Shown here: one piece after another, positions 6,301-35,300 of the stretch
Layout: every line of letters starts with the position of its first letter
Numbering within the stretch: position 1 is the first letter of the stretch
Assembly (NCBI RefSeq): GCF_000820185.1
Contig: NZ_CDCA01000011.1
Location: 1-64,000, forward strand
Source of the DNA: Aeromonas tecta
Lineage (GTDB): Bacteria; Pseudomonadota; Gammaproteobacteria; Enterobacterales; Aeromonadaceae
Direction: 5' to 3'
Length of the DNA: 64,000 nucleotides
Translations under genes and position numbers: made by a program
Notes under the pieces: model-generated
Told to the model about the DNA's origin: nothing
The model's database searches: none
What the model saw: only the letters and a program-made list of their open reading frames with translations

Positions 6301-7124
6301 TAATGCTCCTCACCCGACAACTGCATCTTCGTGGGCGCGCCCTGCGCTGGCCGCTGCCACGGCGACTGAGCCTGAGTATCGCGACCCTAGTTGCCTTGCT
6401 GGCCCTCTGGTGGCTGGTGGCCCGCCTCGGCTGGATAGATCCGCTGTTCCTGCCGCCCCCGGCCCAGGTACTGGCCCAGCTCATCACCATTGCAGGGCCG
6501 CAGGGCTTTATGGACGCCACCCTGTGGCAGCATCTGGGGGCGAGCCTCGGCCGCATCCTGGTCGCATTGGCGGCGGCGGCGGTGTTTGGCATCGCGGCTG
6601 GCATCGCCATGGGGCTGAGCCCCACGGTGCGCGGGGTACTGGATCCCCTCATCGAGCTCTACCGGCCTGTGCCGCCGCTCGCCTACCTGCCGCTGATGGT
6701 GATCTGGTTTGGCATCGGCGAGACCGCCAAGGTGCTGCTCATCTATCTGGCCATCTTCGCCCCGGTGGCCATGGCGACCCTGGCCGGGGTGCAGAGCGCC
6801 CAGCCGGTGCGACTGCGGGCGGCCCGGGCACTCGGCGCCACCAGGGCGCAGGTGCTGTGGCACGTGATTCTGCCGGGGGCGCTGCCGGAGATCCTCACCG
6901 GGCTACGTATCGGCCTCGGGGTGGGCTGGTCGACTCTGGTGGCGGCCGAGTTGATTGCCGCCACTCGGGGCATGGGCTTTATGGTGCAATCTGCCGGCGA
7001 GTTTCTCGCCACCGATGTGGTGCTGGCAGGCATTCTGGTGATCGCGGTGATCGCCTTCGTATTGGAATTGGGGCTACGCGCATTGCAGCGCAGGCTGACA
7101 CCCTGGCATGGAGAAATACAATGA
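6297..7124 (+). CDS. tauC: Taurine ABC transporter permease TauC
   Basis: 275 aa inner-membrane permease of the binding-protein-dependent transport family. It has several hydrophobic segments ([20 protein letters not shown], then [19 protein letters not shown] and others). The cytoplasmic EAA loop reads [25 protein letters not shown]. The start overlaps tauB. The stop (7122-7124) overlaps an ATG at 7121 that opens a 43-residue decoy frame rather than tauD itself. The last 17 codons of tauC have a diverged second copy just before the real tauD start. Confidence 0.96.
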
Positions 7125-7288
7125 ATGACAAGCTGACCATCACACCGCTCGGCCCCCATGGTGAACGTCCAAATCGCCATCACACCGAAACTGGGTTGAC
7201 GCACATTGCCGCGCAGGCTGACGTCCCGACATCCCATGGAGAAAGACAATGAGCGACAAGCTGACCATCACACCGCTCGGGCCTCATA
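7071..7288 (+). repeat. Imperfect tandem duplication of the tauC end / tauD start junction
   Basis: The tauC 3' end, ribosome binding site and first 12-13 codons of tauD occur twice. Copy 1 runs about 7071-7160 and copy 2 about 7193-7288, the latter being the true tauD start. The coding part ACAAGCTGACCATCACACCG is identical in both copies, while the tauC-tail part has diverged and carries a 6-nt length difference. The ATG-to-ATG spacing is 128 bp. Confidence 0.9.
7121..7252 (+). CDS. Doubly coupled decoy mini-ORF between tauC and tauD
   Basis: 43 codons. The first 12 residues ([12 protein letters not shown]) copy the TauD N-terminus ([12 protein letters not shown]), and the last residues (HGERQ) copy the TauC C-terminus (HGEIQ). 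The ATG overlaps the tauC stop and its TGA (7250-7252) overlaps the tauD ATG (7249), so ribosomes could pass tauC to mini-ORF to tauD by successive ATGA re-initiation. It is probably a duplication relic. Whether the peptide matters is unknown; it may only set the TauD translation rate. Confidence 0.5.
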
Positions 7289-8100
7289 TCGGCGCCGAAA
7301 TTGCCGGCCTCACTCTGGCCGAGCCCCTGACCCAGGGCCAATTCGAGCAGCTCCACCGGGCGCTGCTCAAGTACCAAGTGCTGTTCCTGCGGGATCAGCC
7401 CATCACCCCAAGACAGCAGCGGGCGTTGGCGAATCGCTTCGGGGACTTGCACATCCACCCCGTCTATCCCCACAGCGAGGAGGCCGAGGAGATCATCGTG
7501 CTCGACACCCACGACGACAACCCGCCGGACAACGACAACTGGCACACCGACGTGACCTTTATCGAGACGCCGCCGGCGCTGGCCATCCTGGCTGCCAAGC
7601 AGTTGCCACCGAGCGGGGGCGATACCCTCTGGGCCAGCGGCATCGCGGCGCTGGCGGCCCTCTCCCCGCCGTTGCAGAAACTGCTGGCGGGGCTGGAGGC
7701 GGAGCACGACTTCACCAAGTCCTTCCCGGCCCATCGCCACAACGGCAGCGAGGAAGAGCGCCAGCGCTGGCAGGCGGCGGTGGCCAAGAACCCGCCCCTG
7801 CGCCACCCGGTGATCCGCACCCACCCGGTGAGCGGGCGGCAGGCGCTGTTCGTCAACGAGGGCTTTACCACCCGCTTGCCGGACTTGCCCGCCCGGGAGA
7901 GCGAGGCGCTGCTCGGTTTCCTGTTCGATCACATCACCCGCCCCGAGTTTCAGGTGCGCTGGCGCTGGCAGGAGAACGACATCGCCATCTGGGACAACCG
8001 TGTGACCCAGCACTATGCCAACGCCGACTACCTGCCGGCGCGGCGGGTGATGCATCGGGCCACCATCCTCGGGGACAAGCCCTTCTGGCGCGCGTCCTGA
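7249..8100 (+). CDS. tauD: Taurine dioxygenase TauD (2-oxoglutarate- and Fe(II)-dependent)
   Basis: 283 aa. It hydroxylates taurine at C1, releasing sulfite for cysteine synthesis and aminoacetaldehyde. The facial triad is visible: HTD in DNWHTDVTF (around residue 99) and the distal His in [10 protein letters not shown] (around residue 259), followed by the 2-oxoglutarate-binding Arg. Hallmarks [12 protein letters not shown] and [12 protein letters not shown] are conserved. The true start is 7249, with GGAG at 7238-7241 and full-length agreement with the family. The earlier ATG at 7121 belongs to the decoy frame and cannot read into tauD, because they are in different frames. Confidence 0.97.
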
Positions 8101-8127
8101 AGCACTGACATAGCGAGCGCCCATAAG

Positions 8128-8151
8128 AAAGCCCGCCGATTGGTGGGCTTT
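8128..8151. terminator. Bidirectional terminator between tauD and the DUF1428 gene
   Basis: Stem AAAGCCCGCC / GGTGGGCTTT with a 4-nt loop, flanked by A's on the left and T's on the right. It can end the tau operon (plus) and the DUF1428 transcript (minus). Confidence 0.85.
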
Positions 8152-8174
8152 TTGCGCGGCAGCAAAGGCCGGCG

Positions 8175-8543
8175 TCAGGCCTTGAACTCCAGCACGGGAT
8201 TGAAACCACCGTAGATCATGCGGGCGCCATCGAATGGCATCTGCTGATGCATGGGACTGGCCGGATCCATCCTCGGATCCTGCATCATCTTTTGCATCGC
8301 CTCGTCCCGGGTGGCCTTGTCCGGCCACTCCACCCAGGAGAAGACCACGGTCTCGTCTTCCTTGGCCGCCACGGCGCGGTAAAAATCGGTCTGCTTGCCA
8401 TGGGGTACGTCGTCTCCCCAGCACTCCAGCACCCGGGTCGCACCGAGCTCGAGGAAAATGGGATCTATGTATTTTGCATGCTCGATCATGGCCTGCTTGT
8501 TCGCCGTGGGCACGGCAATCACGAATCCATCTACGTATGACAT
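8175..8543 (-). CDS. DUF1428 (YbaA-like) family protein
   Basis: 122 aa, beginning MSYVDGFVIAVP from the ATG at 8543-8541 with GGAGAG upstream. The frame extends to 8618 but the extension has no support. The sequence (HAKYIDPIFLELGATRVLECWGDDVPHGKQTDF and WVEWPDKATRDEAMQKM) matches the YbaA/DUF1428 family of dimeric alpha-beta barrel-like cytoplasmic proteins of unknown function. It is probably monocistronic, running towards the terminator shared with tauD. Confidence 0.85.
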   Translation of the reverse strand: MSYVDGFVIAVPTANKQAMIEHAKYIDPIFLELGATRVLECWGDDVPHGKQTDFYRAVAAKEDETVVFSWVEWPDKATRDEAMQKMMQDPRMDPASPMHQQMPFDGARMIYGGFNPVLEFKA

Positions 8544-8618
8544 GAGACTCTCCTCCTTATTGAGGATCTCAGCATAGCAATGGGTGCCGCCCGCCGCGCC
8601 CTTCCGGCTACCGTCCAA

Positions 8619-9980
8619 TCAGGCGGCGATCAGCCGCTCCAGATCGCTGCGGCTCAGGTGTTTGGTATCCACCTTCACATAGAGGGAGCGCTCTTCGGCG
8701 ACCAGCAGCACGTCGCTCACCCCGTCGCAGGCGCGGATCTTCTGCTCCAGCGCCGCCGTGGCATCGACGCCCTCGGGCAGCAGGATGCGCAGACTGCTGA
8801 CATAGGGCGGCTCCTGCATGGTGAGGCTGACCCCGAGCCAGAGCAGCGCCAGCACGGCGCAGCTGCCAAATACCAGAGGTGCACCGCCAATGCTATAGAG
8901 CAGGCCACCCAGGCTGCCGCCGATGGCGACTCCGATAAACTGGCTGGTGGAGTAGACCCCCATGGCGGTGCCCTTGTAACCAGGGGGCGACTCCTTGCTG
9001 ATAAGCGATGGCAGCAATGCCTCCATCACGTTGAAACCGATGAAGAAGATCTGCAGTCCCAGGAGCAGACCCCAGAGCTGCAGTCCCGCCTGCCAGAGCA
9101 CCACTTCGGCGATGAGCATCACCAGCACGCAGAGCTGGAATACCTGTTTCATCTGCCGGCGCTTCTCGGCATAGAGGATGAAGGGCACGACGCTGACAAA
9201 AGCGATCAGCATGGTCACCAGATAGGCCTGCCACTGACTGTCTCGGGGCAAACCCGCCTGTTCGAGTAAAGGCGGCAGCGCCACGAAGCTCGACATCAAC
9301 AAGGTGTGCACGCAGAGGATGCCGAGGTTGAGTTTGAGCAGACGGGGATTGGCCAGCACGGTGCGGATCCCCCCCTTTACCAGCGCCGACTCACGGTTGA
9401 GCAGGTGGCTCGTCGGAGTGGGTACCCACCACAGGGTGATGCCGATCCCCCCCAGCGCCAGCAGAGCAATCATCCAGAACAGGCCGGACAAGCCCAGGGC
9501 GTGGGTGATGACGGGGCCGGTCACCATGGCGATGGCGAAGGTGATGCCAAAGCTCACCCCGATGAAGGCCATGGCCTTGGTGCGGTTCTGCTCGCGGGTG
9601 AGATCCGAGAGCAGCGCCATGACGGCGGCAGAGATGGCGCCGCTACCCTGCAGGGCGCGGCCGACGATGACGCCCCAGATGGAGTCGCTGAGGGCGGCGA
9701 TGACGGCGCCGAGGGCAAACATCAGCAGACCGCCGACGATCAGCGGCTTTCTGCCGATGCGATCGGAGAGCAGCCCGAACGGGATCTGGAACAGGGCCTG
9801 GGTCATGCCGTAGATGCCGATGGCCAGACCGATCAATGCCTCGGAGGCGCCCGCCAGGGACATGCCATAGGTGGTCAATACTGGCAGCACCATAAACATG
9901 CCGAGCATGCGTAGTGAGAAGACGGAGCCGAGCGCCCAGGTGGCGCGGCGCTCGCCCCTCGTCATGGTGAAATCATTCAT
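8619..9980 (-). CDS. yajR: MFS transporter YajR
   Basis: 453 aa, twelve-helix major facilitator. The motif-A loop is GLLSDRIGRKPLI. The cytoplasmic C-terminal tail (about residues 390-453, SSLRILLPEGVDATAALEQKI then VLLVAEERSLYVKVD) matches the ferredoxin-like YAM domain that distinguishes YajR from other drug:H+ antiporters. It lies downstream of cyoE, the same order as E. coli cyoABCDE-yajR. A terminator hairpin separates it from cyoE, so it probably has its own promoter. Substrate unknown. Confidence 0.93.
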   Translation of the reverse strand: MNDFTMTRGERRATWALGSVFSLRMLGMFMVLPVLTTYGMSLAGASEALIGLAIGIYGMTQALFQIPFGLLSDRIGRKPLIVGGLLMFALGAVIAALSDSIWGVIVGRALQGSGAISAAVMALLSDLTREQNRTKAMAFIGVSFGITFAIAMVTGPVITHALGLSGLFWMIALLALGGIGITLWWVPTPTSHLLNRESALVKGGIRTVLANPRLLKLNLGILCVHTLLMSSFVALPPLLEQAGLPRDSQWQAYLVTMLIAFVSVVPFILYAEKRRQMKQVFQLCVLVMLIAEVVLWQAGLQLWGLLLGLQIFFIGFNVMEALLPSLISKESPPGYKGTAMGVYSTSQFIGVAIGGSLGGLLYSIGGAPLVFGSCAVLALLWLGVSLTMQEPPYVSSLRILLPEGVDATAALEQKIRACDGVSDVLLVAEERSLYVKVDTKHLSRSDLERLIAA

Positions 9981-10087
9981 GATGGCCTCGATAGGTCAAA
10001 GAGAAGAGAGACTCAAAGGGCTGATGGCACAAGGCAGGCCACAGCCGACAAACTGGATAAACGCCCCGCAAGGGGGCCTCATAATAA

Positions 10088-10113
10088 CAGAGCCGGGAAA
10101 GTTCCCGGCTCTG
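10088..10113 (-). terminator. Terminator of the cyo operon
   Basis: An 11-bp stem (CAGAGCCGGGA / TCCCGGCTCTG) with a 4-nt loop. Reading on the minus strand it is followed by TTATTAT, downstream of the cyoE stop. Confidence 0.85.
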
Positions 10114-10169
10114 GATTCTACTGATTTTCCTGTGTCACATCACAACACCGGGCCCGGACTAACGGTGCC

Positions 10170-11060
10170 TCAGGGCAGCATGCTCACCAGCACCGGCGTC
10201 GCATCCGGCTGGAAGTCCACCGACATCATCACGCTCAGGCAGGTGATGGTGACGATGGAGAACATGAACAGCTTGCGGGCCCAGAGGGAGTCATCGACCG
10301 CCTGCTTGTAACCCGACAGCGCCATCCCCAACCACCAGACACTCACCGCGGTGGCGACGATCAGGTACTTGTAACCGGCGTAACCGCCGAGAAACAGCAT
10401 CAGGGTCGGCACCATAAAGGCCAGGATGTAAAGGGTGATGTGGTGTTTGGCCACGGAGATCCCCTTCACCACCGGCAACACCGGGATGTTGGCGGCCTGG
10501 TAATCCTTGAAGCGGAAGATGGCAATCGCATAGGAGTGCGGCATCTGCCACAGGCTGAAAATAGCCAGCAGGATCAGGGCACCGGAGTCGAACTGGCCGC
10601 TCACCGCGCAGTAGCCGATGACGGGTGGTGCGGCGCCGGAGAGGCTGCCGACCAGGGTGCCATAGACCGAATGGCGTTTCATGTAGAGGCTGTAGACCCC
10701 CACATAAACCAGGAAGCCCAGCACTGCCAGCAAGGCGGCCAACGGATTGGCCGCAAAGTAGAGCAGTGCAATGCCCGCAACGCCCAGCGCGCTCGCATAC
10801 CAGAGCGAGACGCCAGGGGCGATCAACCCCTTCACCAGGGCGCGGTTCTTGGTCCGCTCCATGATGCAGTCGATGTCCCGGTCGATGTAGTTGTTGAACA
10901 CACAGCCGGAGGCGACCACCAGTGACACCCCCACCATGGTCAGGATGAACAGGGGAACGTCCAGGCTCCCCTTCGAGGCCAGCAGGAAGCCTCCGATAAC
11001 CGAGATAAGGTTACCGAAGATGATGCCCGGCTTGGTCACTTGCAGGTATTGCTTCATCAT
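10170..11060 (-). CDS. cyoE: Protoheme IX farnesyltransferase (heme O synthase) CyoE
   Basis: 296 aa from the ATG at 11060, the same length as E. coli CyoE; GTG 11063 and ATG 11057 are alternatives. It is an integral-membrane UbiA-type prenyltransferase that adds farnesyl to heme B for the bo3 oxidase. The Asp-rich site is [18 protein letters not shown], and the second conserved region is [20 protein letters not shown]. It lies 13 bp after cyoD in the operon. A Cys replaces the usual residue in DIDxxMERT, outside the catalytic Asp set. Confidence 0.97.
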
Positions 11061-11073
11061 CACATCAACCCGC

Positions 11074-11409
11074 TTAGTGAATCATCATGTTGACGTTGAG
11101 GTTGTACATGATCCACAGGGAACCCACCACGACTATGGCGATGATGAGCACGGTAAACACCAGTGCTATCAGGTTCCAGCGCTCCTCTGACGAGGTGTTC
11201 ATGTGCAGGAAGTACGCCAGATGCACGAAGATCTGGATCACCGCCGTGGCCACCACAGTACCCAGCACCATGGCGTGGGAGGCGCTGCCGTCCATCACCA
11301 TCCAGAACGGGATCGCGGTCAGGATGACCGACAGCACGAAACCGATCAGATATGACTTGGCACTGCCGTGGCTGGCGCCGTGATTATCGACTGCTACGTG
11401 AGTACTCAT
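11074..11409 (-). CDS. cyoD: Cytochrome o ubiquinol oxidase subunit IV CyoD
   Basis: 111 aa with three hydrophobic helices ([65 protein letters not shown]). It is a small accessory subunit that helps assemble the CuB site of bo3 oxidase. The start codon directly abuts the cyoC stop. Confidence 0.95.
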
Positions 11410-12024
11410 TTACATTGCCCCCATCAGATAGACCACTGTGAAGACGCAGATCCACACCACGTCAAGGAAGTGCCAGAACAGGCTCAGGCACATCAGGCGA
11501 GTACGGTTGCGCTCGGTCAGCCCCTTCTTGGATACCAGCACCATCATCACGATGATCCAGATAAGACCACTGGTCACGTGGATACCGTGAGTACCGACCA
11601 GGGTGAAGAAGGCAGACAGGAACCCACTGCGCTGCGGACCGAAGCCCTCGGCGATCAGGTGATGGAACTCGTAGATTTCCATGGCGATGAAGCCGGCGCC
11701 GAGCAAGAAGGTTACCAGCAGCCAGCCGTTGACGGCCGCCACCTTGTTCTTGTTCATCGCCAGCATGCCGAAACCGAAGGTGATGGAGCTAAACAGCAGC
11801 AGCATGGTTTCGGCGAACACGAACGGCAGCTCGAAAATATCCTTGCCGCTCGGACCGCCGGCGGTGCCGTTGACCAGGACTGCATAGGTTGCGAACAGGG
11901 TCGCAAACAAGATGCAGTCACTCATCAGGTAGATCCAGAAACCGAACACCTTGGTGGCACCGGCATCATGGTGCCCATGATCGTCATGGGCGCCGTGAGT
12001 GTGATGTAGAACGTCAGTTGCCAT
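11410..12024 (-). CDS. cyoC: Cytochrome o ubiquinol oxidase subunit III CyoC
   Basis: 204 aa, five membrane segments, with an N-terminal His/Asp-rich stretch ([35 protein letters not shown]). Family hallmarks [14 protein letters not shown] and [19 protein letters not shown] are present. It belongs to the oxidase core, with 4 bp to cyoB upstream and abutting cyoD. Confidence 0.96.
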
Positions 12025-12028
12025 AGCG

Positions 12029-14005
12029 TCAGGCTACCTTGTTGATGTTGTCGAAATGCTGACCTTCGATGCGCTCGATCTCGTCAACTTGTACGTAGTA
12101 GTCCACATCCTCGTTGAAGCTGTGGATGATCCAGGTGGCTACCATGCCGACGAAGCCGGCGATGGCCATCCACCAGATGTGCCAGATCATGGCAAAGCCA
12201 AACACCACGCTGAGTGCGGCAATGACGACACCGGCACCGGAGTTCTTGGGCATGTGGATGGGGGCATACTGGGCCGGCTGGCGATAGGCGCTACCGTCCT
12301 CTTTCGCTTCCCAGAAGGCATCAAGACCCTTGATCTTCGGTTCGATGGCGAAGTTGTAGAACGGCGGCGGCGAGGAAGTCGCCCACTCCAGGGTACGGCC
12401 ACCCCAAGGATCGCCGGTCCAGTCACGGTTCTTCTCGCGGTCACGAATACTGACCACCACTTGAATCACCTGACACAAGACACCGATGGCAATCAGGCCG
12501 GCACCGCAAGCGGCCACCACCAGCCAACCGTGGAACTCGGGATCGATGTTCTGGCTGACCCGACGGGTCATGCCCATGAAGCCCAGCACATAGAGCGGCA
12601 TGAAGGCCACGAAGAAGCCGGTGATCCAGAACCAGAACGCACGCTTGCCCCAGACATCATCCAGCTTGAAGCCGAATGCCTTCGGGAACCAGTAGGTGAT
12701 ACCGGCGAAGCAACCGAACACGACGCCGCCGATGATGACGTTGTGGAAGTGGGCGATCAGGAACAGGCTGTTGTGCAGCACGAAGTTGGCGGCCGGTACC
12801 GAGAGCAGTACCCCGGTCATGCCACCGACGGTGAAGGTGATGATGAAGCCGACGGTCCACAACATGGGCGAGGTGAACTCGATGCGACCGCGATACATGG
12901 TGAACAGCCAGTTGAAGATCTTCACCCCGGTCGGGATGGAGATGATCATGGTGGTGATGCCGAAGAAGGCATTCACGTTGGCGCCGGATCCCATGGTGAA
13001 GAAGTGGTGCAACCAGACCACGAAGGAGAGCACGGTAATGGCCACGGTGGCCCACACCAGCGAGGTGTAACCGAACAGCTTCTTCTTGCAGAAGGTCGCC
13101 ACGATTTCGGAGAAGATCCCGAACACCGGCAGCACCAGGATATACACCTCGGGGTGACCCCAGGCCCAGATCAGGTTGATGTACATCATCATGTTGCCAC
13201 CCATGTCATTGGTAAAGAAATGGGTGCCGAGGTAACGGTCTGCGGTGAGCAGGGCGATGGTGACGGTCAGGATCGGGAAGGAGGCGATGATCAGGATGTT
13301 GGCGCAAAGAGCCGTCCAGGTGAACACCGGCAGACGCATCATGGTCATGCCAGGAGCACGCATCCTGATGATGGTGGCAAAGAAGTTGACACCGGTCAGC
13401 AGGGTACCCAGACCCGAGATCTGCAGACTCCAGATCCAATAATCGACCCCGACGCCCGGACTGAAGTCCACGCCCGACAAGGGCGGATAAGCCAGCCAAC
13501 CGGTCTGGGCGAATTCGCCGACCGCCAGGGAGACGTTGATCAGCACCACGGCCGCGGCGGTAAACCAGAAGCTCAGGTTGTTCAGGAAGGGGAAGGCGAC
13601 GTCACGGGCACCGATCTGCAACGGCACCACTATGTTCATCAAGCCGATCACCAGTGGCATGGCCACGAAGAAGATCATGATGACGCCGTGGGCGGTGAAG
13701 ATCTGGTCGTAGTGGTGCGGCGGCAGTATGCCTTCCCCACCGGCGGACGCCATGACCTGCTGGGTACGCATCATCACCGCATCGGCGAAGCCGCGCAGCA
13801 GCATGACCATCCCTAAGATGAGATACATGATACCGAGGCGCTTGTGATCCACCGAGGTGAACCACTCTTTCCACAGATATTGCCACTTGCCGAAATAGGT
13901 GATCAGCCCGGCGATCGCCAGCCCACCCAATATGATACCGGCTATCGTGACCATGATTATGGGTTCATGGTACGGGATAGCTTCGAGTGTTAACTTTCCA
14001 AACAT
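12029..14005 (-). CDS. cyoB: Cytochrome o ubiquinol oxidase subunit I CyoB
   Basis: 658 aa catalytic heme-copper subunit carrying low-spin heme b, heme o3 and CuB. Metal-ligand motifs are visible: [15 protein letters not shown] (heme b His), [14 protein letters not shown] (CuB His and the cross-linked Tyr), [10 protein letters not shown] (two CuB His) and [12 protein letters not shown] (heme ligands). It couples ubiquinol oxidation to proton pumping in the inner membrane. Length equals the family norm. Long frames on the opposite strand are codon-bias shadows. Confidence 0.98.
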
Positions 14006-14008
14006 CGA

Positions 14009-15037
14009 TTATTCCTCGGATCCTGCTTTCACACTCTTGTCATCCATCGGCATGGCCATGTGCCCGGCATGATCTTCATGCCCAGCCTCTGCCATGTCGC
14101 CGTGATCCATGTCGGCCATGTCCATCTCGTCGTCATGCTTGCCGGCAGCGTCGTGTTGCATGCCCTTGTGGTCAGCCGGTTTCATGTCACCCATGAACTT
14201 GTTGATCACGTTGACGAACAGCTTGGGATCAGCGCTCGCGAAGTACTCCACCGGGTGGTTTTCGCTCTTCTTCGCCAGCACATCGAACTCACCCATGGTG
14301 TTGAGCATCTTGGGAGACTGCTTGACCTTGGCAACCCAGGCATCAAATCCGGCTTGATCCGTTGTGGCGATGGCCTTGAACTTCATGCCGGAGAAACCGG
14401 CGCCGCTGTAGCTGCCCGAAATTCCCTTGTACTGACCCGCCTCGTTGGCAATCAGATGCAACTTGGTCTGCATCCCCGCCATGGCATAGATCTGACCACC
14501 CAGTTGCGGGATGAAGAAGGAGTTCATCACGGTGTCGGAGGTCACCCGGAAGTTGACCGGGGTATTGACCGGGAAGGCCAATTCGTTGACCGAGGCAATG
14601 CCCAGTTCCGGATAAACAAACAGCCATTTCCAGTCGAGGGAAATAACATCGACCTGGATCGGTTTGACGTCCGATACCAATGGTTTGTATGGGTCCAGTT
14701 CGTGGGAAGTTTTCCAGGTAATCACCGCCAGAATGGCGACAATAATGACGGGGACGGTCCAGACAACCGCTTCAATCTTGTTGGAGTGAGACCAATCCGG
14801 GGTATATTTGGCGGAGGTGTTGCTTGCTCTGTATTTACGAGCAAATGCCACCGTCATAATAATCACAGGAATCACTACAATTAACATCAGACCGAGTGCG
14901 GTTAATATTAGTGACTTCTGCTCCAGACCAACCTGCCCTTTGGGGCTCATCAGAGCCATGTCGCAGCCACTCAGCAAGCCAGTAGTCGCGATCAACAGCA
15001 AAGCGCCCAAGCCCCTCTGTACATCATAAGGTCTCAT
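14009..15037 (-). CDS. cyoA: Cytochrome o ubiquinol oxidase subunit II CyoA
   Basis: 342 aa lipoprotein with lipobox LLSGC near residue 25, two membrane helices, then a periplasmic cupredoxin fold without CuA ligands, as in quinol oxidases ([24 protein letters not shown]). The C-terminus, from about residue 285, is a tail rich in His, Met and Asp ([20 protein letters not shown]) that could bind metal. His/Met tails are known in enterobacterial CyoA. GAGGG lies about 8 nt before the ATG. It is the first gene of cyoABCDE. Confidence 0.96.
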
Positions 15038-16032: not shown

Positions 16033-16080
16033 GGTAAGACTCCTATTGCGAGATGCCCGTCGCGGGCGATGACGACATTG

Positions 16081-16100
16081 TTCATCTTCTCGTCGATGAA
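16081..16100. promoter_or_regulatory. Candidate LysR-type operator in a divergent promoter
   Basis: A 20-bp dyad TTCATC-N8-GATGAA sits midway between the AhpD-like gene and the LysR gene. It contains the T-N11-A pattern typical of LysR-regulator sites. Assignment is by position and symmetry only. Confidence 0.4.
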
Positions 16101-16153
16101 TAGAATATCGGCTAAACCTGCAACAGTTTTGCATTTACCGCAAAGGAGTGCCC

Positions 16154-25180: not shown

Positions 25181-25187
25181 TATGTCT

Positions 25188-25214: not shown

Positions 25215-25459
25215 TCCCCTCCCCGTCTTGCCTGTTTATCCCTTCGCCAGCCCTGTCACAGATTGTCGCGACCGCTTGCGCCGCCTCCTGCCGGAGCGGA
25301 CAACCCCCTGCCCCTGAAAGCTCCCGTTCAATTTTGTCACTCTATTATTAAAAAACCGTTGTATAGCAAAACGTTAAATGTGCAAACATGTCGTTAATAA
25401 TGCTCGTTGATAATAAAATGACACGCAGCCAGCGTGGCCCCACCGGCAGGAGTGTGAAG

Positions 25460-26659
25460 ATGAAGGTTCCAGGGATCAGGAAAGAGACATTCAAACGTGG
25501 TTGCATGGCCCTGGCACTGGCCAGCGGGCTGGTTGGCTGTGGTGATAGCAAGGATGGCAATGCCCAGGCGATGCCCCAGGTACCCGTGGTGGTCGCCGAG
25601 GTGGTCCCGGCCGATGTGCCCTTCACCACCGAAGTGGTCGGTGAAACCGCCGGCTTTCGCGAGATAGAGGTGCGCTCCCGGGTGGGGGGCATACTGCTCA
25701 AACGCACCTATGTGGAAGGGCAACCGGTCAAGGCCAATCAGGAGCTGTTCCTGATCGATCCTGCCCCCTATCAGGCCGCACTGGAGCAGTCTCAGGGCAG
25801 CCTGGCCCAGGAGCAAGCCCGTCTCAACAAGGCCCGCGCCGACAGGGAGCGGATCATCCCCCTCTATAAACGCCAGGTGGTGAGCCGCAAGGACTACGAC
25901 GACACCATCGCCAACTATGAGGCGGCCGTGGCCTCCCTGCAGGCGGCCCAGGCCCAGGTGAAAGAGGCCGCGCTCAACCTCGGCTACACCCAGGTCACGG
26001 CCCCCATCGATGGCATGGCGAGCAAGAGCTCCCAGTCCGAGGGCAGCCTCATCTCCACCAGCGGTGACAATGGCCTGCTGACCACCATCACCCAGTTCGA
26101 TCCCCTCTATGTGAACTTCTCTTATTCGGAGCAGGATCGGCTCATCTTCGACAACTACATCAAGAGTGGCCAGGTCAAAGCCAACACCGATGCCAACTGG
26201 CGCACCCATATCCGCTTGACCGACGGCTCCGTCTATCCCCAGCCGGGTCATCTCAACTTCTCCGACAACAGGGTCGACCCACAGACCGGCACCATACGCG
26301 CCCGCGCCATCTTCGATAACAAGCAGGGAGCCCTGTTGCCCGGCCAGTTCGTGCGCATGACCATCGAACTGGGGGTGCGCAAGAACGCCATCCTGGTGCC
26401 GTCCCGCGCCATAGTGCAATCCCAAGCCGATCGCATGGTGATGGTGGTCAATAGCGACAACAAGGTCGAGCCCCGGGTGGTCAAACTGGAACAGGGCATC
26501 GAGGACAAGGTGCTGGTCACCAGCGGCCTCAAGGCGGGGGAAAAATACGTGGTCGAGGGGCTGATGAAGGCCCGTCCCGGCGCCCTGGTCAAGCCTGTCT
26601 CCGCCGAGCAGATGCAAGCCATCACCGCCAAGGTCATCGATCACAGCGCCGGCAAATAA
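25460..26659 (+). CDS. RND efflux periplasmic adaptor (AcrA/MexA type)
   Basis: 399 aa. The ATG at 25460 is preferred over upstream in-frame ATGs because GGCAGGAG lies just before it and a lipoprotein signal follows (lipobox LVGC). The barrel-sandwich halves (EVRSRVGGILLKRTYVEGQPVKANQ, split by a coiled coil QGSLAQEQARLNKARADRERI) and beta-barrel/MP domains follow the AcrA layout. It bridges the inner-membrane pump encoded 9 bp downstream to a TolC-type channel. No outer-membrane gene is in this operon. Upstream, two CGTTAA repeats flank a short dyad (25372-25396) that could be a repressor site. Confidence 0.93.
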   Translation: MKVPGIRKETFKRGCMALALASGLVGCGDSKDGNAQAMPQVPVVVAEVVPADVPFTTEVVGETAGFREIEVRSRVGGILLKRTYVEGQPVKANQELFLIDPAPYQAALEQSQGSLAQEQARLNKARADRERIIPLYKRQVVSRKDYDDTIANYEAAVASLQAAQAQVKEAALNLGYTQVTAPIDGMASKSSQSEGSLISTSGDNGLLTTITQFDPLYVNFSYSEQDRLIFDNYIKSGQVKANTDANWRTHIRLTDGSVYPQPGHLNFSDNRVDPQTGTIRARAIFDNKQGALLPGQFVRMTIELGVRKNAILVPSRAIVQSQADRMVMVVNSDNKVEPRVVKLEQGIEDKVLVTSGLKAGEKYVVEGLMKARPGALVKPVSAEQMQAITAKVIDHSAGK

Positions 26660-26668
26660 GGAGTTCGT

Positions 26669-29600
26669 ATGTTTTCCAAGTTCTTCATCGAACGCCCCAT
26701 CTTTGCCAGCGTGATCTCGATCATCATAGTACTGGCTGGGTTGGCCGCGATGCGCTCCCTCTCCATCGAGCAGTATCCGCAGATAACCCCGCCCGTGGTG
26801 CAGGTCACGGCCTACTACTCGGGCGCCACTCCCGAGGTCATCTCCCAGACGGTCGCCGCCCCCATCGAGCAGCAGATCAACGGCGTCGAGGACATGATCT
26901 ACATGCAGTCCGGATCCGCTTCCAACGGCCAGATGAACCTGAACGTCTACTTCAGCATCGGTACGGATCCGGATCAGGCCACCATCAACGTCAACAACCG
27001 GGTCTCGGCCGCCATGGCCCAGCTGCCCGACGACGTGAAGCAGCAGGGGGTGACGGTACGCAAGAAATCCACCTCCATCCTGCAGGTGATCACCCTGGAG
27101 TCGCCAGAGGGGGCCTTTGATACCACCTATCTCTCCAACTACGCCCTGCTCAACATCATCGATGAGCTCAAGCGTATCCCCGGGGTCGGTGATACCACCC
27201 TGTTTGGCGGCACCGACTACGCCATGCGCATCTGGCTGCGGCCGGACCGGCTGGCCCAGCTCAGCCTGACCACCAGCGATGTGGTGAATGCCATTCGTGA
27301 GCAGAACACCCAGTTCGCGGCCGGCAAGATAGGGGCCCAACCCACCTCTGCCCCCATCGATTTCACCTACACGGTGCAGACCAAGGGGCGTCTCGAGGCG
27401 GTGAGCGAGTTCCAGAACATCATCATTCGCTCCATGCCGGACGGATCCAAGATCCGGGTCAAAGATGTCGCCAGGGTCGAGCTCGGGGGCAAGGACTATG
27501 ACGTGACCGCCAAGGCCAACGGCAAGCAGGCCATCGGTATCGCCATCTACCTGCAACCCGGTGCCAATGCGGTCGCGGTGTCGGATCAGATCAACAGCAC
27601 CATGACCGCCCTCAAGACGCGCTTCCCCCAGGGAATGGAGTACCGGATCCCCTACGACACCACCGAGTTCGTGAAGATCTCCATCGAGGAGGTGGTACAC
27701 ACCCTGATCGAGGCGATCATCCTGGTGTTCTGCGTGGTCTATCTGTTCCTGCAGAACCTGCGCGCCACCCTGATCCCCTGTATCGCGGTGCCGGTATCGC
27801 TGATCGGGACCTTCGCCGGCATGTTGGTGCTGGGTTTCTCCATCAATCTGCTGACCCTGTTCGGCATGGTGCTCGCCATCGGCATCGTGGTGGATGACGC
27901 CATAGTGGTGTTGGAAAACGTCGAGCGGATCATGCAGGAGAAGAAGTGCTCCCCGAAAGAGGCCGCCATCCTCGCCATGCAGGAGGTGTCCGGCCCCGTG
28001 GTCGCCATCGTGCTGGTGCTGTGCGCCGTGTTCCTGCCGGTCGCCTTCATGGGCGGCATGACCGGGGTGATGTACAAGCAGTTCGCCATCACCATCGCCG
28101 TCTCCGTGACCATCTCGGGGCTGGTGGCGCTGACCCTCTCCCCCGCCCTGTGCGCCATCCTGCTCAAGGAGGGACACCATAAACCGGCGCGCTTCTTCGT
28201 CTGGTTCAACGCCCAGTTTGACAAGCTGACCTCCCGCTATGTGCGCGGGGTCGCCTTCCTCAACCGCCGGGTCGGCGTCGCCTTTACCATCATCCTGTTC
28301 ATCCTGGCCGGGGTCTATGTGCTCTTGATGAAGGTGCCCGGCGCCCTGGTGCCCGACGAGGATCAGGGGTATCTCATCTCCTCGGTCATGTTGCCGGACG
28401 CCGCCGCCCTCACCCGTACCCAAACCGTCGCGGATCAGTTTGACAAGATAGCCATGGCCAACCCCAACGTGCAGGACGTGGTCACCTTCTCGGGCTTTGA
28501 CATACTGTCGAGCGCCATCATCAGCAACCGGGGCCTGAGTTTCATCACCCTCAAGGACTGGGGCGAGCGGCAGGGCGAGGGGCAGGACTCCTTCTCCCTG
28601 GCCAAGACCCTGCAAGGGCTCAGCGTCATGGGACAGTCCGATGGCGTGGTCGCCTCCTTCAACCCGCCCCCCATCCAGGGCATGTCCACCACCGGCGGAC
28701 TGGAAGGCTATCTGCAAGATAGGGGATCGGGTGATACCAAGGCCTTCGCCGTCGAGGTGGATCGCCTGCTGGAAGCGGCCAAACAGCGGCCAGAACTTGC
28801 CAGTGTCACCACCACCTACCGGGCCAACGTGCCCCAGGTGTTCCTGGATCTGGACCGGGAGAAAGCCAAGGCGCTGGGGCTGCCCATCAACGCGGTGTTT
28901 GACACCATGCAGGCCACCTTCGGTCAGGTCTACGTCAACGACTTCAACCAGTTCGGTCGTACTTACCGGGTCCAGTTGCAGTCCGAGGCGGATTACCGGG
29001 CCCACAAGAGTGACATTCGCAACGTCTATGTCCGCTCCGACAAGGGCGACATGATCCCCCTCACCAGCCTGGTGACGGTGCGCGATGCCACCGGCCCCGA
29101 GCTGGTCGAGCGCTTCAACATCTTCCCGGCGGCCAAGATCATGGCGCAACCGGCACCGGGCTACAGCTCGGGTCAGGCCATCGCCGCGCTGGAGCAGGTA
29201 GCTGACGAGACCCTCGGCAACGAAGCCAAGCTAGAGTGGACGGGCTCTGCCTATCAGGAGAAAGAGGCGGCAGGCAGTGCCGGCACCGCCTTTGGCTTTG
29301 GCATCATCATGGTGTTCCTGATCCTGGCGGCCCAGTACGAACGCTGGACCCTGCCCTTCGCGGTCATCACGGCGGTGCCCTTCGCCCTGTTTGGCGCCCT
29401 GTTCGCCACCTGGGCGGTGGGACTCACCAACAACGTCTACTTCCAGATAGGGCTGGTGACCCTGGTCGGCCTTGCGGCGAAGAACGCCATCCTCATCGTC
29501 GAGTTTGCGGTGATGAAGCACGAAGAAGGGATGAGCCTGCTGGAATCGGCGCTGGAGGCGGCGCGACTGCGTTTTCGTCCCATCGTCATGACCTCGCTCG

Positions 29601-29797
29601 CCTTCATCCTCGGCTGTGTGCCGCTGGTCACCTCGAGCGGTGCCGGCGCCGCCAGTCGGCACGCCCTCGGCTGGCCGGTCATCGGCGGCATGTTGGCGGC
29701 TACCTTCATCGCCATCTTCTTCATCCCGCTGTTCTTCCGCCTCATCATGCGGCGATCGGAGCAAAAGGCCGCCAAGGCCCACGAAGAGAAACACTGA
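26669..29797 (+). CDS. RND multidrug efflux pump (AcrB/MexB type)
   Basis: 1042 aa inner-membrane proton-driven transporter of the HAE1 class. The paired proton-relay Asp residues lie in [14 protein letters not shown] (about residues 409-410), with the partner Lys in [14 protein letters not shown]. Signature blocks are [35 protein letters not shown] and [20 protein letters not shown] broken around residue 670. GGAG lies before the ATG, 9 bp after the adaptor. It resembles Aeromonas AheB-like and E. coli AcrB pumps; drug range cannot be read from sequence. Confidence 0.95.
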
Positions 29798-29803
29798 GAC
29801 TGA

Positions 29804-29829
29804 CAAGCCCCCGCCCATGCGGGGGCTTG
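29804..29829 (+). terminator. Terminator of the AcrAB-type operon
   Basis: 11-bp stem CAAGCCCCCGC / GCGGGGGCTTG with a 4-nt loop, 7 bp after the pump stop codon. Only a modest T content follows. Confidence 0.8.
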
Positions 29830-29954
29830 CTTATGGGGCCGCTAGCCTGATTTTTCATGGGTTTTCTGCCTGGCATCAGTGACAATCTCGCCGCGTCACC
29901 GCTCCAAGTCCCTGTCTGCCATCACATATTAGGTATGTCTATTCGTGCCAAACC

Positions 29955-29985
29955 TTGACCTTCTCCTTTAGGTAAGGTTTACATT
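29955..29985 (+). promoter_or_regulatory. CueR-type (MerR family) copper-responsive promoter
   Basis: TTGACC (-35, 29955-29960) and TACATT (-10, 29980-29985) are separated by 19 bp, the over-long spacer typical of MerR-family activators. The spacer holds the dyad ACCTT...AAGGT (29958-29962 and 29974-29978), closely resembling the recalled E. coli copA promoter (TTGACCTTCCCC...GGAAGGTTTA). It directly precedes the Met/His/Cys-rich protein and cusBAF. No cueR gene is in the window. Confidence 0.85.
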
Positions 29986-30013
29986 CGGCACATCCGTCAC
30001 AGGGAAGCCGCCC

Positions 30014-30484
30014 ATGTTGTCATCGAGATTGCCCACAGAGCTCATCGCCCGGCTGTTGCTGGCGCTGGTGCTCGTCTGCAATCTGACCCTGTGCATCAGC
30101 TGGCATGGCTCGGCGGCGGCAGAGGATGCCGCGCCCCAAGCGACCCAAATGCTGGCCATGGCCGACATGGCCGACATGGCCGATGCCCCCGCAGTCATGC
30201 AGGGGCTCCCCTGCCACGATGCCGGCAGCGGACAAACCGGTGCCAGCATGAGTCAGGGTGACTGCCAGATGCACGGCGGCCTCACCTCCCCCGGAGGGGC
30301 TGGTATGCCCTTGCTGGCGGCGCTGCTCACCCTGTTTGCCCTCCCCTTGCTGATCATGCCACGCCTTGGCGCCCTCGATGCGTCACTGGATCAGTGGCTG
30401 CGTGACCCCTTGCTGCGCCTGCGCGGCGCCCATCCCCCCTCCTGGCCCAGACGGCATCTGATGCTCTCTGTGCTGCGCCATTAG
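30014..30484 (+). CDS. Unknown Met/His/Cys-rich membrane protein, first gene of the copper-efflux operon
   Basis: 156 aa, family not recognised. It has an N-terminal hydrophobic segment (LLLALVLVCNLTLCISWHG), then a probable periplasmic loop rich in possible metal ligands (MLAMADMADMADAPAVM, GLPCHDAG, MSQGDCQMHGG). A second helix (PLLAALLTLFALPLLIM) and a basic C-terminal tail follow. ADM is repeated through a 9-bp DNA repeat. It sits 29 bp after the CueR-type promoter and 304 bp before cusB. A copper sensor, chaperone or assembly role is an inference from ligands and context only. Confidence 0.7.
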   Translation: MLSSRLPTELIARLLLALVLVCNLTLCISWHGSAAAEDAAPQATQMLAMADMADMADAPAVMQGLPCHDAGSGQTGASMSQGDCQMHGGLTSPGGAGMPLLAALLTLFALPLLIMPRLGALDASLDQWLRDPLLRLRGAHPPSWPRRHLMLSVLRH

Positions 30485-30788
30485 AAACATCTTCTCCCGC
30501 TAGCCAGTGCGATGGTTTTTCCATTGCCATAAACGACTTGCAGCAGACGATTATGTTGCTACAGCCACGTTTATCGCCTACTTCTGCTAGTGGCCAAGCC
30601 TGTTCTGTGTGATGTCGGCGCCTAAAGCCCGCACCTATCGCACCGACGGCTTGCCCGTTCGCCACTTGCAGCAGCCCGGCGGCCTGACACAAGAGAAGAT
30701 GTACCATGTCATCAGCCAAGATGTTTGCGCACCCAAGCGCCCCCTCCTCCCGCACTGTCTGCCTGCAGACTCGCGCCGGAGGCCTGTT
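30485..30788 (+). other. 304-bp spacer between the unknown copper protein and cusB
   Basis: No full gene is seen. The cusB frame stays open back to 30609, but that extension is Arg/Pro-rich and lacks a ribosome binding site. No terminator hairpin was found, so read-through from the CueR-type promoter is plausible. An outer-membrane CusC-type gene, usual in such operons, is absent here. Confidence 0.5.
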
Positions 30789-32300
30789 ATGAACAAGACC
30801 CTGATCCTGTCTACCCTGCTGCTTGCCCTCGGGGCCGGCGGCGGTTATCTCGCTGCCAGACACCTGCCCGGCGAGGGTGCCAGCGCCGAGAAACAGCCCC
30901 TCTATTGGGTCAACCCCATGGATCCGCGCGATCGGCGTGACGGCCCCGCCAAGGACAACATGGGGATGGACTTTATCCCCGTCTTTGAGGAGAAACAGGG
31001 GGGATCGCCGGGTACCGTCACCATCAGCCCCCAGATCCAGCAGAACCTGGGGGTGCGGCTCGCCAAAGTAGAGCGACTGCCCGTCCACCAGCAGATCGAG
31101 ACTGTGGGTTACGTGGGCTATGACGAGGATCGGCTGGAGGCCATCAACGCCCGCATGGCGGGCTGGATCCGCACCCTGGCCATCAAGAGCGAGGGGCAAA
31201 AAGTGGCGAAGGGCAGCCTTATCTATGAGCTCTATGCACCGGATCTGGTCAATGCCCAGCACGAATACCTGCTGGCCCTCAATACCAGCAACCCACTGCT
31301 GCTGCGCGCCGCCGAAGGCAAGCTGAAATCCCTGCAGGTGCCGGCGGATCAGATTGCCGCCCTCAAGCGCACCCGTCAGGTGAGCGAAACCATCCGCATC
31401 TATGCCCCGAGCAGCGGCTATGTGTCTGAGCTGAAAGTGCGCGAGGGCCAGTATGTAGAGCCCGCCGCCGCCCTGTTCAACATCAGCACCCTCAAGCAGG
31501 TGTGGGTGAGCGCCGAGGTGTTCGAGCGCCAGGCCGCCCAGCTCAAGGTCGGGGATCCGGTCAGCATGACCCTGGACTACGCCCCCGGCCGCCAGTGGCA
31601 GGGCCGGGTGGATTACCTCTACCCCACCCTGGACGCGGTGACCCGCACCCTCAAGGTACGGCTGCGTTTCAATAACCCGAACGAGTTCTTGAAACCCAAC
31701 ATGTTCGCCAAGGTGAGCATTCGCAGCGGCAGCGGCGCGCCGCAGACCCTGGTGCCGAGTGAAGCGGTGATCCGCACCGGCAGCCAGGACCGACTGGTGC
31801 TGGCGCTGGGGGATGGCGGCTTCAAGTCGGTGGCGGTGACGCTCGGCCCCCAGTTCGGTGACAAGGTCGCCATCCAGAGCGGGGTCGAACCCGGTGATGA
31901 GATAGTCAGCTCGGCGCAATTTTTGCTCGACTCGGAATCGGCCATCGATTCGGACTTCCAGCGCATGACGGCGGTGCGGCCCCAGCAGGTCTGGACTCAG
32001 GGGGAGATCCAGACCCTGGACATGGCAAGCCGAGTTTTAAGCGTCAGTCACCAGCCGATCCCGGAATGGCAGTGGCCCGCCATGGAGATGGACTTCACCG
32101 TCGCCGACGGGGTCGATATGGGGCAGTTGAAGCAGGGTCAGGCCCTGCACCTGCAGGTCGAGCAAGAAGGAGATGAGTACAGGATCGTCAATATCCATGT
32201 CGAGGATGGCGACGCAGCCCCTGCCAAAGCTGAGATGAGCGACATGCCGGACATGAAAGGCATGGATCACAGCCAGCACGATATGGGGGATAAATCATGA
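30789..32300 (+). CDS. cusB: Copper/silver efflux periplasmic adaptor CusB-like, with extra metal-binding domains
   Basis: 503 aa from the ATG at 30789 (GGAGG upstream). Order: N-terminal membrane anchor; a short heavy-metal-binding domain (YWVNPMDPRDRRDGPAKDNMGMDFIPV, written over residues about 37-65); the adaptor hairpin and lipoyl/beta-barrel domains; a CusF-like domain near residues 415-480 (WPAMEMDFTVADG); and a terminal Met/His tail (MPDMKGMDHSQHDMGD). E. coli CusB is about 407 aa; the extra length is the fused CusF-like domain and tail. The stop at 32298-32300 overlaps the ATG of a decoy mini-ORF, not cusA itself. Confidence 0.9.
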   Translation: MNKTLILSTLLLALGAGGGYLAARHLPGEGASAEKQPLYWVNPMDPRDRRDGPAKDNMGMDFIPVFEEKQGGSPGTVTISPQIQQNLGVRLAKVERLPVHQQIETVGYVGYDEDRLEAINARMAGWIRTLAIKSEGQKVAKGSLIYELYAPDLVNAQHEYLLALNTSNPLLLRAAEGKLKSLQVPADQIAALKRTRQVSETIRIYAPSSGYVSELKVREGQYVEPAAALFNISTLKQVWVSAEVFERQAAQLKVGDPVSMTLDYAPGRQWQGRVDYLYPTLDAVTRTLKVRLRFNNPNEFLKPNMFAKVSIRSGSGAPQTLVPSEAVIRTGSQDRLVLALGDGGFKSVAVTLGPQFGDKVAIQSGVEPGDEIVSSAQFLLDSESAIDSDFQRMTAVRPQQVWTQGEIQTLDMASRVLSVSHQPIPEWQWPAMEMDFTVADGVDMGQLKQGQALHLQVEQEGDEYRIVNIHVEDGDAAPAKAEMSDMPDMKGMDHSQHDMGDKS

Positions 32301-32380
32301 TCCCCGCTATCATTCGCTGCTTTGTCGGCCCTCACATTCTGCCGCTGGCGCCCTATCAAGCGAGAGGTGCCAAGCCATGA
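32297..32380 (+). CDS. Doubly coupled decoy mini-ORF between cusB and cusA
   Basis: 27 codons. The N-terminus (MIPAIIRCFVG) is a diverged copy of the CusA N-terminus (MIPSIIRWSVG). Its ATG overlaps the cusB stop (ATGA at 32297-32300) and its TGA (32378-32380) overlaps the cusA ATG (32377). The ATG spacing is 80 bp. This is the same design as at tauC-tauD and suggests a duplicated start region converted into a relay for re-initiating ribosomes. No function is established. Confidence 0.5.
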   Translation: MIPAIIRCFVGPHILPLAPYQARGAKP

Positions 32381-35300
32381 TCCCTTCCATCATTCGCTGG
32401 TCCGTCGGCAACCGCTTCCTGGTGCTGCTGCTCACCCTGATGTTGACCGCCTGGGGGCTCTGGTCGGTCAAGCAGACCCCGGTGGATGCCTTGCCGGATC
32501 TCTCCGACGTGCAGGTGATCATCAAGACTTCCTACCCAGGCCAGGCGCCCCAGGTGGTGGAGGATCAGGTCACCTACCCGCTCACCACCGCCATACTGGC
32601 GGTGCCGGGGGCTACCACGGTGCGCGGCTACTCCTTCTTCGGCGACTCCTTCGTCTACGTGCTGTTTGACGACAGCACGGATCTCTACTGGGCTCGGGCT
32701 CGGGTGCTGGAGTACCTGAGCCAGGTGGCACCTAGCCTGCCCGCCTCCGCCCGCCCCCAGCTCGGCCCGGATGCCACCGGGGTGGGCTGGGTCTATCAGT
32801 ACGCCCTGGTGGACAAAACAGGCAAGCACGATCTCAGCGAACTCACCTCCCTGCAGAACTGGTTTTTGAAATACGAGCTGCAAACGGTAAATGGCGTCTC
32901 CGAGGTCGCCACCGTCGGCGGCATGGTGCGCCAGTACCAGGTGCGGGTCGATCCGGACAAGCTGCGCGCCTACGGCATCCCCCTTTCGCTGATCCAGACC
33001 GCCATCGAGATGGGCAACCAGGAGACAGGCGCCTCCGTCATCGAGATGGCGGAAGCAGAATATATGGTGCGCTCGAATGGCTATCTGAAGAGTGTCGAGG
33101 ATCTGAAACAGATACCCCTTGGCACCAATGTGCGGGGCGCGCCCTTGCTGCTCGGTGACGTAGCAGATGTGGTTACCGGCCCACAGAGTCGACGCGGCCT
33201 CGCCGAGCTCAACGGTGAGGGAGAAGTGGTGGGCGGCATCATCGTCATGCGCTACGGCGAGAATGCCCAGCACACCATAGACGGGGTCAAGGCTCGGCTC
33301 GCCGAGCTCAAGAGCAGCCTGCCGGACGGGGTGGAAGTGGTGACTGTGTATGACAGATCCGATCTCATCCAGCGTGCCATCGACAACCTCTCCGGCAAGC
33401 TCATCGAGGAGTTCGCCGTGGTGGTGCTGGTCTGCCTCGCCTTCCTGTTCCACTTGCGCTCATCCCTGGTGGTGGTGATCTCCCTGCCCATCGCCATCCT
33501 GGTCGCCTTCATCGTCATGCATCTGCAGGGGATCAACGCCAACATCATGTCCCTCGGCGGTATCGCCATCGCAATCGGCGCCATGGTGGATGGCGCCATC
33601 GTGATGATAGAGAACGTGCATAAGCACATGGAGCGGGAGGCGCTCACCGACAAGAATCGTTGGCGGATCATCGTCGAGGCGAGCATCGAGGTGGGGCCCG
33701 CCATCTTCTTCTCCCTGCTCATCATCACCATGAGCTTCCTGCCGGTGTTCGCGCTGGAGGCCCAGGAGGGACGAATGTTCCATCCGCTGGCCTACACCAA
33801 GACCTACGCCATGGCGGCGGCGGCCGGGCTCTCCATTACCCTGGTGCCAGTATTGATGGGGTACTTTATCCGCGGCAGAGTCTTGCCCGAGCAGGCCAAC
33901 CCCCTCAACCGGGGTTTAAGTAACGCTTACATCCCCCTGCTCAACACCGTGCTGGCGCGCCCCAAGACCACGCTCGCCGCCGCCCTGGTGGTGACTGTGG
34001 TGGGCTTCTGGCCGCTCAACTATCTCGGCTCCGAGTTTATACCGCCGTTCGATGAGGGGGACATCATGTACATGCCCACCACGGCGGCGAACATCTCGGT
34101 GGGCAAGGCGCGGGAGATCCTGCAACAGACCGACAAGCTCATTCGCACCGTGCCCGAGGTGCAGAACGTGTTTGGCAAGGCGGGCCGCGCCGACTCCGCC
34201 ACCGATCCCGCCGATCTGGTGATGATGGAGACCAGCATCCAGCTCAAACCCCGCGATCAGTGGCGCCCCGGCATGACCCCGGAAAAACTCAAAGAGGAGC
34301 TCGACTCCCTCATCCGCTTCCCCGGCCTCACCAACGCCTGGGTGCCTCCCATCAAGACCCGCATCGACATGCTGGCCACCGGTATCAAGACTCCGGTTGG
34401 CATCAAGATAGCGGGGCCGGATCTCAAGGTCATTCAGGGCCTCGGCCAACAGCTGGAGCAGATCGTCGGCAAGGTGCAGGGGGCATCGTCCGTCTACGCC
34501 GAGCGGGTGGCCGGTGGTCGCTACGTCAAGGTAGATATCGACAGGCTCAAAGCAGCGCGCTATGGCCTCAACATCGCCGAGGTGCAGGCGGTGCTCGCCA
34601 CCGCAGTGGGCGGCATGGACGTGGGCCAGACCATAGAGGGGCGCGAACGCTATCCTATCAACCTGCGCTACCCCCAGAGCTACCGCGATTCGGTAGCCAG
34701 CCTGGAGCTCTTGCCGCTGGTGACCCCCAAAGGAGAGCGCATCGCCCTGGCGGACGTGGCCCGAGTCTATATCAGCGACGAGGCCCCCATGCTGCGTAGC
34801 GAAAACGCCCGCCTCAACGGCTGGGTCTACGTGGATATCCGGGATAGGGACATCGGCTCCTTCGTGGCCGAGGCCAGGGCCGAGGTGGACAAGCAACTGG
34901 TGTTGCCGGCGGGCTACGCCCTCAGCTGGTCCGGGCAGTACGAATACATGGAGCGGGCCAAGGCGCGCCTCGCCTATGTGGTGCCGCTGACGTTCGCCAT
35001 CATAGTACTGCTGCTCTATCTGGCGTTTCGCCGTTTCCAGGAGGTGCTGCTTATCCTCACCACCCTGCCGCTGGCAGTAGTCGGGGGGATCTGGACCGTC
35101 TGGCTGCTGGACTTCAACCTCTCGGTGGCGGTCGGTGTGGGCTTTATCGCCCTGGCCGGAGTGGCGGTGGAGACCGGCGTCCTGATGCTGGTCTACCTCA
35201 ACCACGCCTGGGACGATCTGGTCGCCCGCGGCAAGCCCACCCTGCAAGGCCTGCACGACGCCGTCATTCAGGGCGCGGCCCTGCGCCTGCGCCCCAAGAT

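Follow-up and report, generated by a model that had tools for sequence, protein, structure and literature searches.

Two operon junctions in a 64,000-nucleotide stretch of Aeromonas tecta DNA (contig NZ_CDCA01000011.1, positions 1 to 64,000; hereafter the window), those between tauC-like and tauD-like genes and between cusB-like and cusA-like genes, each hold a short open reading frame (ORF) that begins at the stop overlap of the upstream gene and closes on the genuine start of the next gene in the operon. We refer to such an ORF as a relay, and ask how relays arise, how widely they occur, and what selection, if any, keeps them. The comparison covers 37 genomes of the window's genus, taken as Aeromonas because the named loci nearest to the window's come from Aeromonas dhakensis (CusA identity 94%) and A. 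cavernicola.

Relays are a recurrent class in Aeromonas. At four gene pairs, which present five junction forms, 65 relay hops were found, all of them (65/65) in the phase required for closure, and 64 of the 65 end exactly at the overlap of their own junction. An earlier note on the window had proposed that the same architecture occurs at unrelated operon junctions with a bias of phase, and this is borne out both by the 65 hops and by a sample scan of genome G010 described below. The relays probably descend from random duplications that spanned operon junctions and were filtered by selection for termination-reinitiation.

Relays in the window

All features given here lie on the plus strand. At the tau junction, the TGA of a tauC-like ABC permease gene (6297..7124, PF00528) overlaps the relay start in the ATGA at 7121, and a relay ORF of 43 codons (7121..7252), with ATGA overlaps at both ends, leads to the true start, ATG 7249, of a tauD-like dioxygenase gene (7249..8100, PF02668). 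By alignment, the junction holds two tandem copies of the tauC tail and the tauD head, at 7036..7158 and 7159..7305 (limits approximate), with copy offsets of 123 and 128 flanking a 5-nucleotide (nt) indel. A Shine-Dalgarno (SD)-like GGAG is located 5' of the relay start (7110..7113), and another 5' of tauD within the relay ORF (7238..7241). At the cus junction, the TGA of a cusB-like gene with a C-terminal CusF domain (30609..32300, PF16576 and PF11604, the putative start being that of the ORF finder) overlaps the relay start in the ATGA at 32297. The relay ORF of 27 codons (32297..32380), which by alignment has a head like that of cusA and a tail like the end of cusB, again has ATGA overlaps at both ends, and leads to the true ATG at 32377 of a cusA-like RND transporter gene (32377..35496, PF00873); the SD-like runs are GGGGGA 5' of the relay start (32285..32290) and, within the relay ORF, GAGGTG 5' of cusA (32364..32369).

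In both cases the ORF head is a copy of the head of the downstream gene, and the ORF end is a copy of the upstream tail together with an SD-like run. Start-anchored flanks of 37 positions are identical at 33 for tau and at 25 for cus, and the spacing from relay start to true ATG is 128 at tau and 80 at cus; the coordinates, spacings and phase that the earlier note had read at the two junctions are correct by sequence and alignment. In single-sequence folds, which are not used in our argument, the SD of cusA was largely paired and that of tauD partly open. As side observations, the CusF-like copper-binding domain of the window's cusB (30609-32300) is fused C-terminally at residues 461-530 and is followed by a Met/His-rich tail, and a 75-bp repeat at 56140-56330 forms three in-frame copies within the ORF 55477-57639.

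A phase rule for relays across Aeromonas

Closure obeys a general rule, namely that the spacing plus the upstream-stop offset equals 0 mod 3. The required phase is 2 mod 3 for 4- and 7-nt overlaps and 1 mod 3 for an 11-nt overlap, so that the claim of 2 mod 3 as the only closing phase stands for the former two and fails for the last. The 65 hops comprise 24 at cus, 6 at tau, 24 at a kinase-regulator pair, and 6 and 5 at the two forms of a thioesterase pair; they reduce to 15 distinct locus-spacing states, all in phase (15/15) over five junction forms with two required phases. Two relays in series are seen in each of the five forms. Each relay step shows a stop-start overlap or a gap of a few nt, as termination-reinitiation pairs do. 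An SD-like run with a match of at least 4 to the anti-SD complement precedes 56/65 relay starts and 55/65 next starts, and in 55/65 hops the SD of the next gene lies inside the relay ORF, as in a bicistronic design. The count omits two cus loci, L047 (a chance ATGA in the cusB tail) and L059 (a run of N), leaves L060, L068 and L069 unused, and stands apart from the A. dhakensis locus L210 (spacing 77); the relay of L328, where the upstream gene end is unmeasurable, is included. From sequence alone, the origin by duplication, the phase and the recurrence can be regarded as established, as can, for cus, the absence of constraint on the peptide.

Relays at individual gene pairs

CusA was matched in 37/37 genomes, and 36 cusB-cusA junctions from 35 genomes were read; the junction of G025 holds a run of N. 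The relay is present in 23 genomes, with a spacing of 77 in 18, of 80 in 4 (including the window's), and of 77 then 80 serially in G035. The 12 junctions without a relay consist of ten direct ATGA overlaps and two otherwise spaced junctions in the distant congeners G030 and G028. On a tree of the flanking cusB and cusA sequences the relay is placed near the base of the main clade, followed either by several clean losses or by interspecies exchange, which the tree does not separate. Outside the genus, none of the 77 measurable cusB-cusA junctions (of 78 non-Aeromonas loci) has a relay-like distance, the stop codon in each beginning 22 nt or less ahead of the start. One of the ten direct ATGA overlaps belongs to a second, highly divergent copy of the cusB-cusA pair in G019 (L067), which has no relay, sits on a long branch and has possibly been acquired.

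TauD orthologues occur in 17 genomes, all 17 junctions of which were read, with relays in 5 and direct junctions in 12. Single relays are spaced 128 (window), 131, 110 and 83, and G024 has two relays in series, each with a spacing of 110. In one alignment of the tau relay copies, indels of 2, 5, 6 and 13 nt occur whose sums are multiples of three, and the middle of the window's relay is read in a different frame than that of G012, yet closes on tauD; such net-triplet indels and frame change are the trace expected of selection that acts on the closing phase and ignores the peptide. TauD-family matches with one internal in-frame stop were also seen in several congeners (L018, L019, L020, L024 and L030).

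The G010 scans led to two further pairs, a histidine kinase with a LytTR regulator (Pfam) and an aromatic amino acid lyase with a 4HBT thioesterase, and the window's own genome carries relays at both (spacings 80 and 52). The kinase-LytTR pair, with a 7-nt overlap, was matched in 32/37 genomes. All 20 fetched loci (20/20), which are the 20 best-scoring and hence a favoured sample, carry relays with a spacing of 53, 80 or 83, and in four of these loci a pair of relays stands in series. By match coordinates alone, relay-like lengths are found in G015, G020, G031 and G033 and a longer one in G036, while G003, G008, G021, G024, G026 and G035 appear to have direct junctions; for the distant G030 the coordinates are ambiguous. 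The lyase-thioesterase pair was matched in 23/37 genomes, and 20 loci were fetched. At an 11-nt overlap, five loci have relays with a spacing of 46, 52, 106 or 109, each 1 mod 3, and at a 4-nt overlap four loci have relays with a spacing of 113 or 116, each 2 mod 3. Another seven loci have no relay, and four (L330-L333) are left unclassified. Clades with different overlaps thus have different phases, i.e. the phase goes with the overlap found at the host junction, a dependence not anticipated by the rule of the earlier note. Nor are small-molecule stress operons a shared context, as had been suggested, since the other junctions precede unrelated families, namely genes for the LytTR response regulator and the 4HBT thioesterase and FtsW/RodA-, LptF/G-, OppC- and PilN-family genes.

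Duplications in genome samples

The scan that had been proposed for the whole genome was run on samples, i.e. 1.2 Mb of G010, 0.4 Mb of G015, the window, and 80 kb of the window's own genome. Gene starts came from a simple purpose-made caller, which sometimes misplaces them. A start-anchored duplication was called at 25 or more identical positions of 37 in the flanks, lowered to 23 for the G010 event set, and in the null each gene start was compared with the region upstream of another gene, which gave no gene of 658 in four draws and one in a fifth, and 0/985 in each of four further draws. At the threshold of 25, 24/985 called genes in G010 (at least one a coding repeat) had such duplications, the null draws giving none, as had 2/47 genes in the window. 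Outside the genus, the counts were 1/248 in G123, 0/171 in G114 and 1/160 in G112 (a coding repeat), again with none in the null draws, and among 78 non-Aeromonas cus loci they were 3/1220 genes (null draw 1), two of these being coding repeats.

At the threshold of 23, G010 yielded 29 events, of which nine, with the upstream stop no more than 30 nt from the first copy, were classed as coupled. All nine (9/9) close in the interval from -10 to +13 nt around the true start, compared with 5/20 of the others (Fisher p 2e-4), and it is this outcome of the scan that supports the earlier expectation of a phase bias. Events 418902 and 745935 were classed as uncoupled because their best pair lies far from the upstream stop; if both are taken as coupled, the figures become 11/11 vs 3/18. 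Event 328652 (ATGA, exact closure, 21/37) fell under the threshold. Weaker matches in contig C38 of G000 (23/37, ends at +22) and in G015 (25/37, ends at -4) may be due to chance.

The duplications themselves are general. When tandem loci of any kind with a period of 40-320 were counted, the 1.2 Mb of G010 held 87, with 12 within genes, 29 at ends, 18 intergenic, 17 at starts and 11 spanning an end and a start. Elsewhere there were 14 in 0.4 Mb of G015 (8 within genes), 15 in 0.4 Mb of G123 (10), 2 in 0.2 Mb of G114 (0) and 7 in 0.2 Mb of G112 (4). Duplication specific to starts was ruled out, as the loci of G010 also lie at ends and between genes. Of the two causes that the earlier note had offered, recurrent duplication and selection for a relay, both seem to act together; a duplication mechanism special to starts is not supported. 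Intragenic periods are all multiples of three and those at ends, starts and intergenic sites are mixed, a pattern from which duplication looks random, with survival depending on what gets broken. A duplication spanning a junction breaks neither protein but parts the stop from the start, and the end-plus-start loci have 1, 3 and 7 periods of 0, 1 and 2 mod 3, respectively. As a separate observation, G010 (C1:1-1200000; L070-L089, L110-L129, L150-L169) has 75 tandem duplications outside gene interiors vs 6 in 0.4 Mb of G015, an excess that perhaps reflects a lineage-specific duplication rate.

Constraint on the relay peptide

For 24 cus relays, the ratio of nonsynonymous to synonymous substitution rates (dN/dS) is 0.74 in frame vs 0.61 and 0.78 in the shifted frames, and the raw ratio (pN/pS) is 0.81 vs 0.10 in the first cusA codons. 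Purifying selection on relay amino acids was thus not seen in the cus dN/dS, nor in the tau relays with their mid-relay change of frame. With cus dN/dS near the values of the shifted frames, a peptide function for relays is unsupported, and the relay peptide is without recognisable function. In a neutral simulation, 5.9 of the 24 cus relays are expected to contain a stop, and none does in 3.5% of runs; with the conserved ends fixed, 2.7 are expected and none is seen in 20% of runs, and at half the branch lengths stops are absent in 18% of runs, or in 48% with the ends fixed.

Proposed mechanism and its alternatives

In the mechanism that we propose, a short tandem duplication over an operon junction would add a second copy of the upstream gene's tail and the downstream gene's head, leaving both proteins intact. 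The true start would come to lie ~45-130 nt away from the upstream stop, a distance too great for termination-reinitiation; only with the right length would the ORF of the first copy lie in the frame of the copied tail and close at the true start, on the copied stop. Ribosomes would then pass from one gene to the next by two rounds of termination and reinitiation, restarting first on the relay and then on the downstream gene. Duplicates in the wrong phase would be lost to selection, and later indels would last only with the net phase restored. For two E. coli gene pairs, a 38-nt gap is reported to lower reinitiation by 80-90%, and for a third to abolish it (PMC10666635). With so steep a dependence on distance, coupling should be lost once a junction duplication has inserted 45-130 nt, unless the inserted stretch is bridged by an ORF. 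We infer relay translation, and coupling as the selected trait; as far as sequences tell, it is the closing phase that is conserved, not the product.

Several observations weigh against this mechanism. Start-anchored duplications are rare in G015 (1/340 genes at the threshold of 25) and were found in 0/67 genes in the 80 kb of G000 C38. An exact copy of the upstream stop ends only 6/9 of the coupled G010 relays, the other three ending nearby (+1, +4 and -4), and the outcome depends slightly on the cut-off, 31 nt in place of 30 giving closure in 9/10 coupled events, since event 1120753 lies just past the cut-off (upstream stop 31 nt away, relay end at -13). When closure in shifted frames is allowed, the product probability of the nine events is 0.0016. 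The sole non-exact hop is at the tau junction of G010, with a tauD start of ATGC and a relay that runs 12 nt past the usual end. As the 65 hops and 15 states are kin by descent, (1/3)^15 is too strong a figure, and the absence of stops in the cus relays, taken alone, is weak evidence (P 0.035 to 0.48) and was dropped as proof of selection.

Descent within a locus is also what a neutral origin would invoke, in which duplications persist without selection and the phase reflects a few ancestral events, chance and the choice of loci. The fetched kinase-regulator loci are indeed the best-scoring ones, and the event numbers in G010 are small. Such an origin would, however, have to produce 15/15 states in phase over five junction forms and two required phases, the net-triplet indels in tau, and the difference between coupled and other events within G010; it is already disfavoured and we consider it improbable. 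Somewhat less improbable, though still unlikely, is that selection favours continuous translation, as opposed to polarity or decay of an untranslated gap, and not the handover of ribosomes to the next start. In-phase relays leave nearly no untranslated gap, and E. coli transcripts with long untranslated regions are described as unstable (PMC10666635), but the gaps here would be merely ~45-130 nt, and 64/65 hops end exactly at the copied overlap, not just close by. The presence of the cus relay in 23/36 junctions at 26-27 codons could suggest functional small proteins or sensing leader peptides with conserved sequence. The evidence is largely against these, with cus dN/dS close to that of shifted frames, the mid tau relay in different frames among species, and relays at other junctions from 15 codons upward, and we hold them to be very improbable indeed.

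If duplication filtered by coupling is the correct explanation, the phase of duplications that would otherwise look neutral would reveal, from sequence alone, which individual gene pairs need coupled translation. It would also call for caution in annotation, where a relay start mimics the true start of a gene.

Comparison with known systems

The earlier note knew of no described class of this kind. The relay architecture is in fact already described, in mycobacterial interspersed repetitive units (MIRUs) and in synthetic bicistronic designs, and it is their origin that sets the Aeromonas relays apart; we found no description of local duplication as a source of relays in the open-licence literature. 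Bicistronic designs place a leader ORF ahead of the target gene. The likeness is that this short leader ORF, as described in a 2025 review, holds the SD of the target gene and overlaps its start (PMC12548453); the difference is that relays are natural, lie within operons and are made by duplication. With termination-reinitiation pairs (ATGA, TGATG), as treated in PMC6728339 and PMC10666635, relays share the 4-nt overlaps at their ends and the SD in the upstream ORF, and the distance dependence reported there explains the phase filter; they differ in adding a cistron without a conserved product, sometimes two serially.

The same review describes short ORFs that bring ribosomes to a coupled gene, and presents MIRUs as apparently mobile, dispersed repeats inserted at start codons with a -4 nt spacing (PMC12548453); MIRU units of 77 and 53 bp are reported between mycobacterial senX3 and regX3, a two-component operon (PMC4213456). 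As depicted in these sources, MIRUs resemble relays in being short ORFs at operon junctions coupled to the next gene, possibly in tandem, and relays, too, overlap both flanking genes. The MIRU lengths of 77 and 53 are also 2 mod 3, and Aeromonas relays of 53 occur in a two-component operon (L294-L313) and of 77 before cusA, which is probably a coincidence of allowed lengths. A MIRU insert is expected to be unrelated to its flanks, whereas a relay consists of downstream head and upstream tail. MIRUs are portrayed as dispersed and apparently mobile, while relays are built from the sequence on either side of them and the two that were examined are undispersed: in its own genome, the cus relay matched, besides itself and its tandem partner, only at E 0.2-0.4, and the tau relay matched itself, its two flanking copies and one sequence at E 0.6. 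If the proposed origin is correct, it would provide a local, non-mobile way to MIRU-like cistrons. More tentatively, Aeromonas junctions could be dynamic, with duplications of ~45-130 bp repeatedly inserting, extending and excising relays under phase selection, the relay number serving as an evolvable dial of expression ratios, and MIRUs may have begun likewise before becoming mobile; we hold this broader picture to be possible but doubtful. We class the relays as working like MIRUs without being MIRUs.

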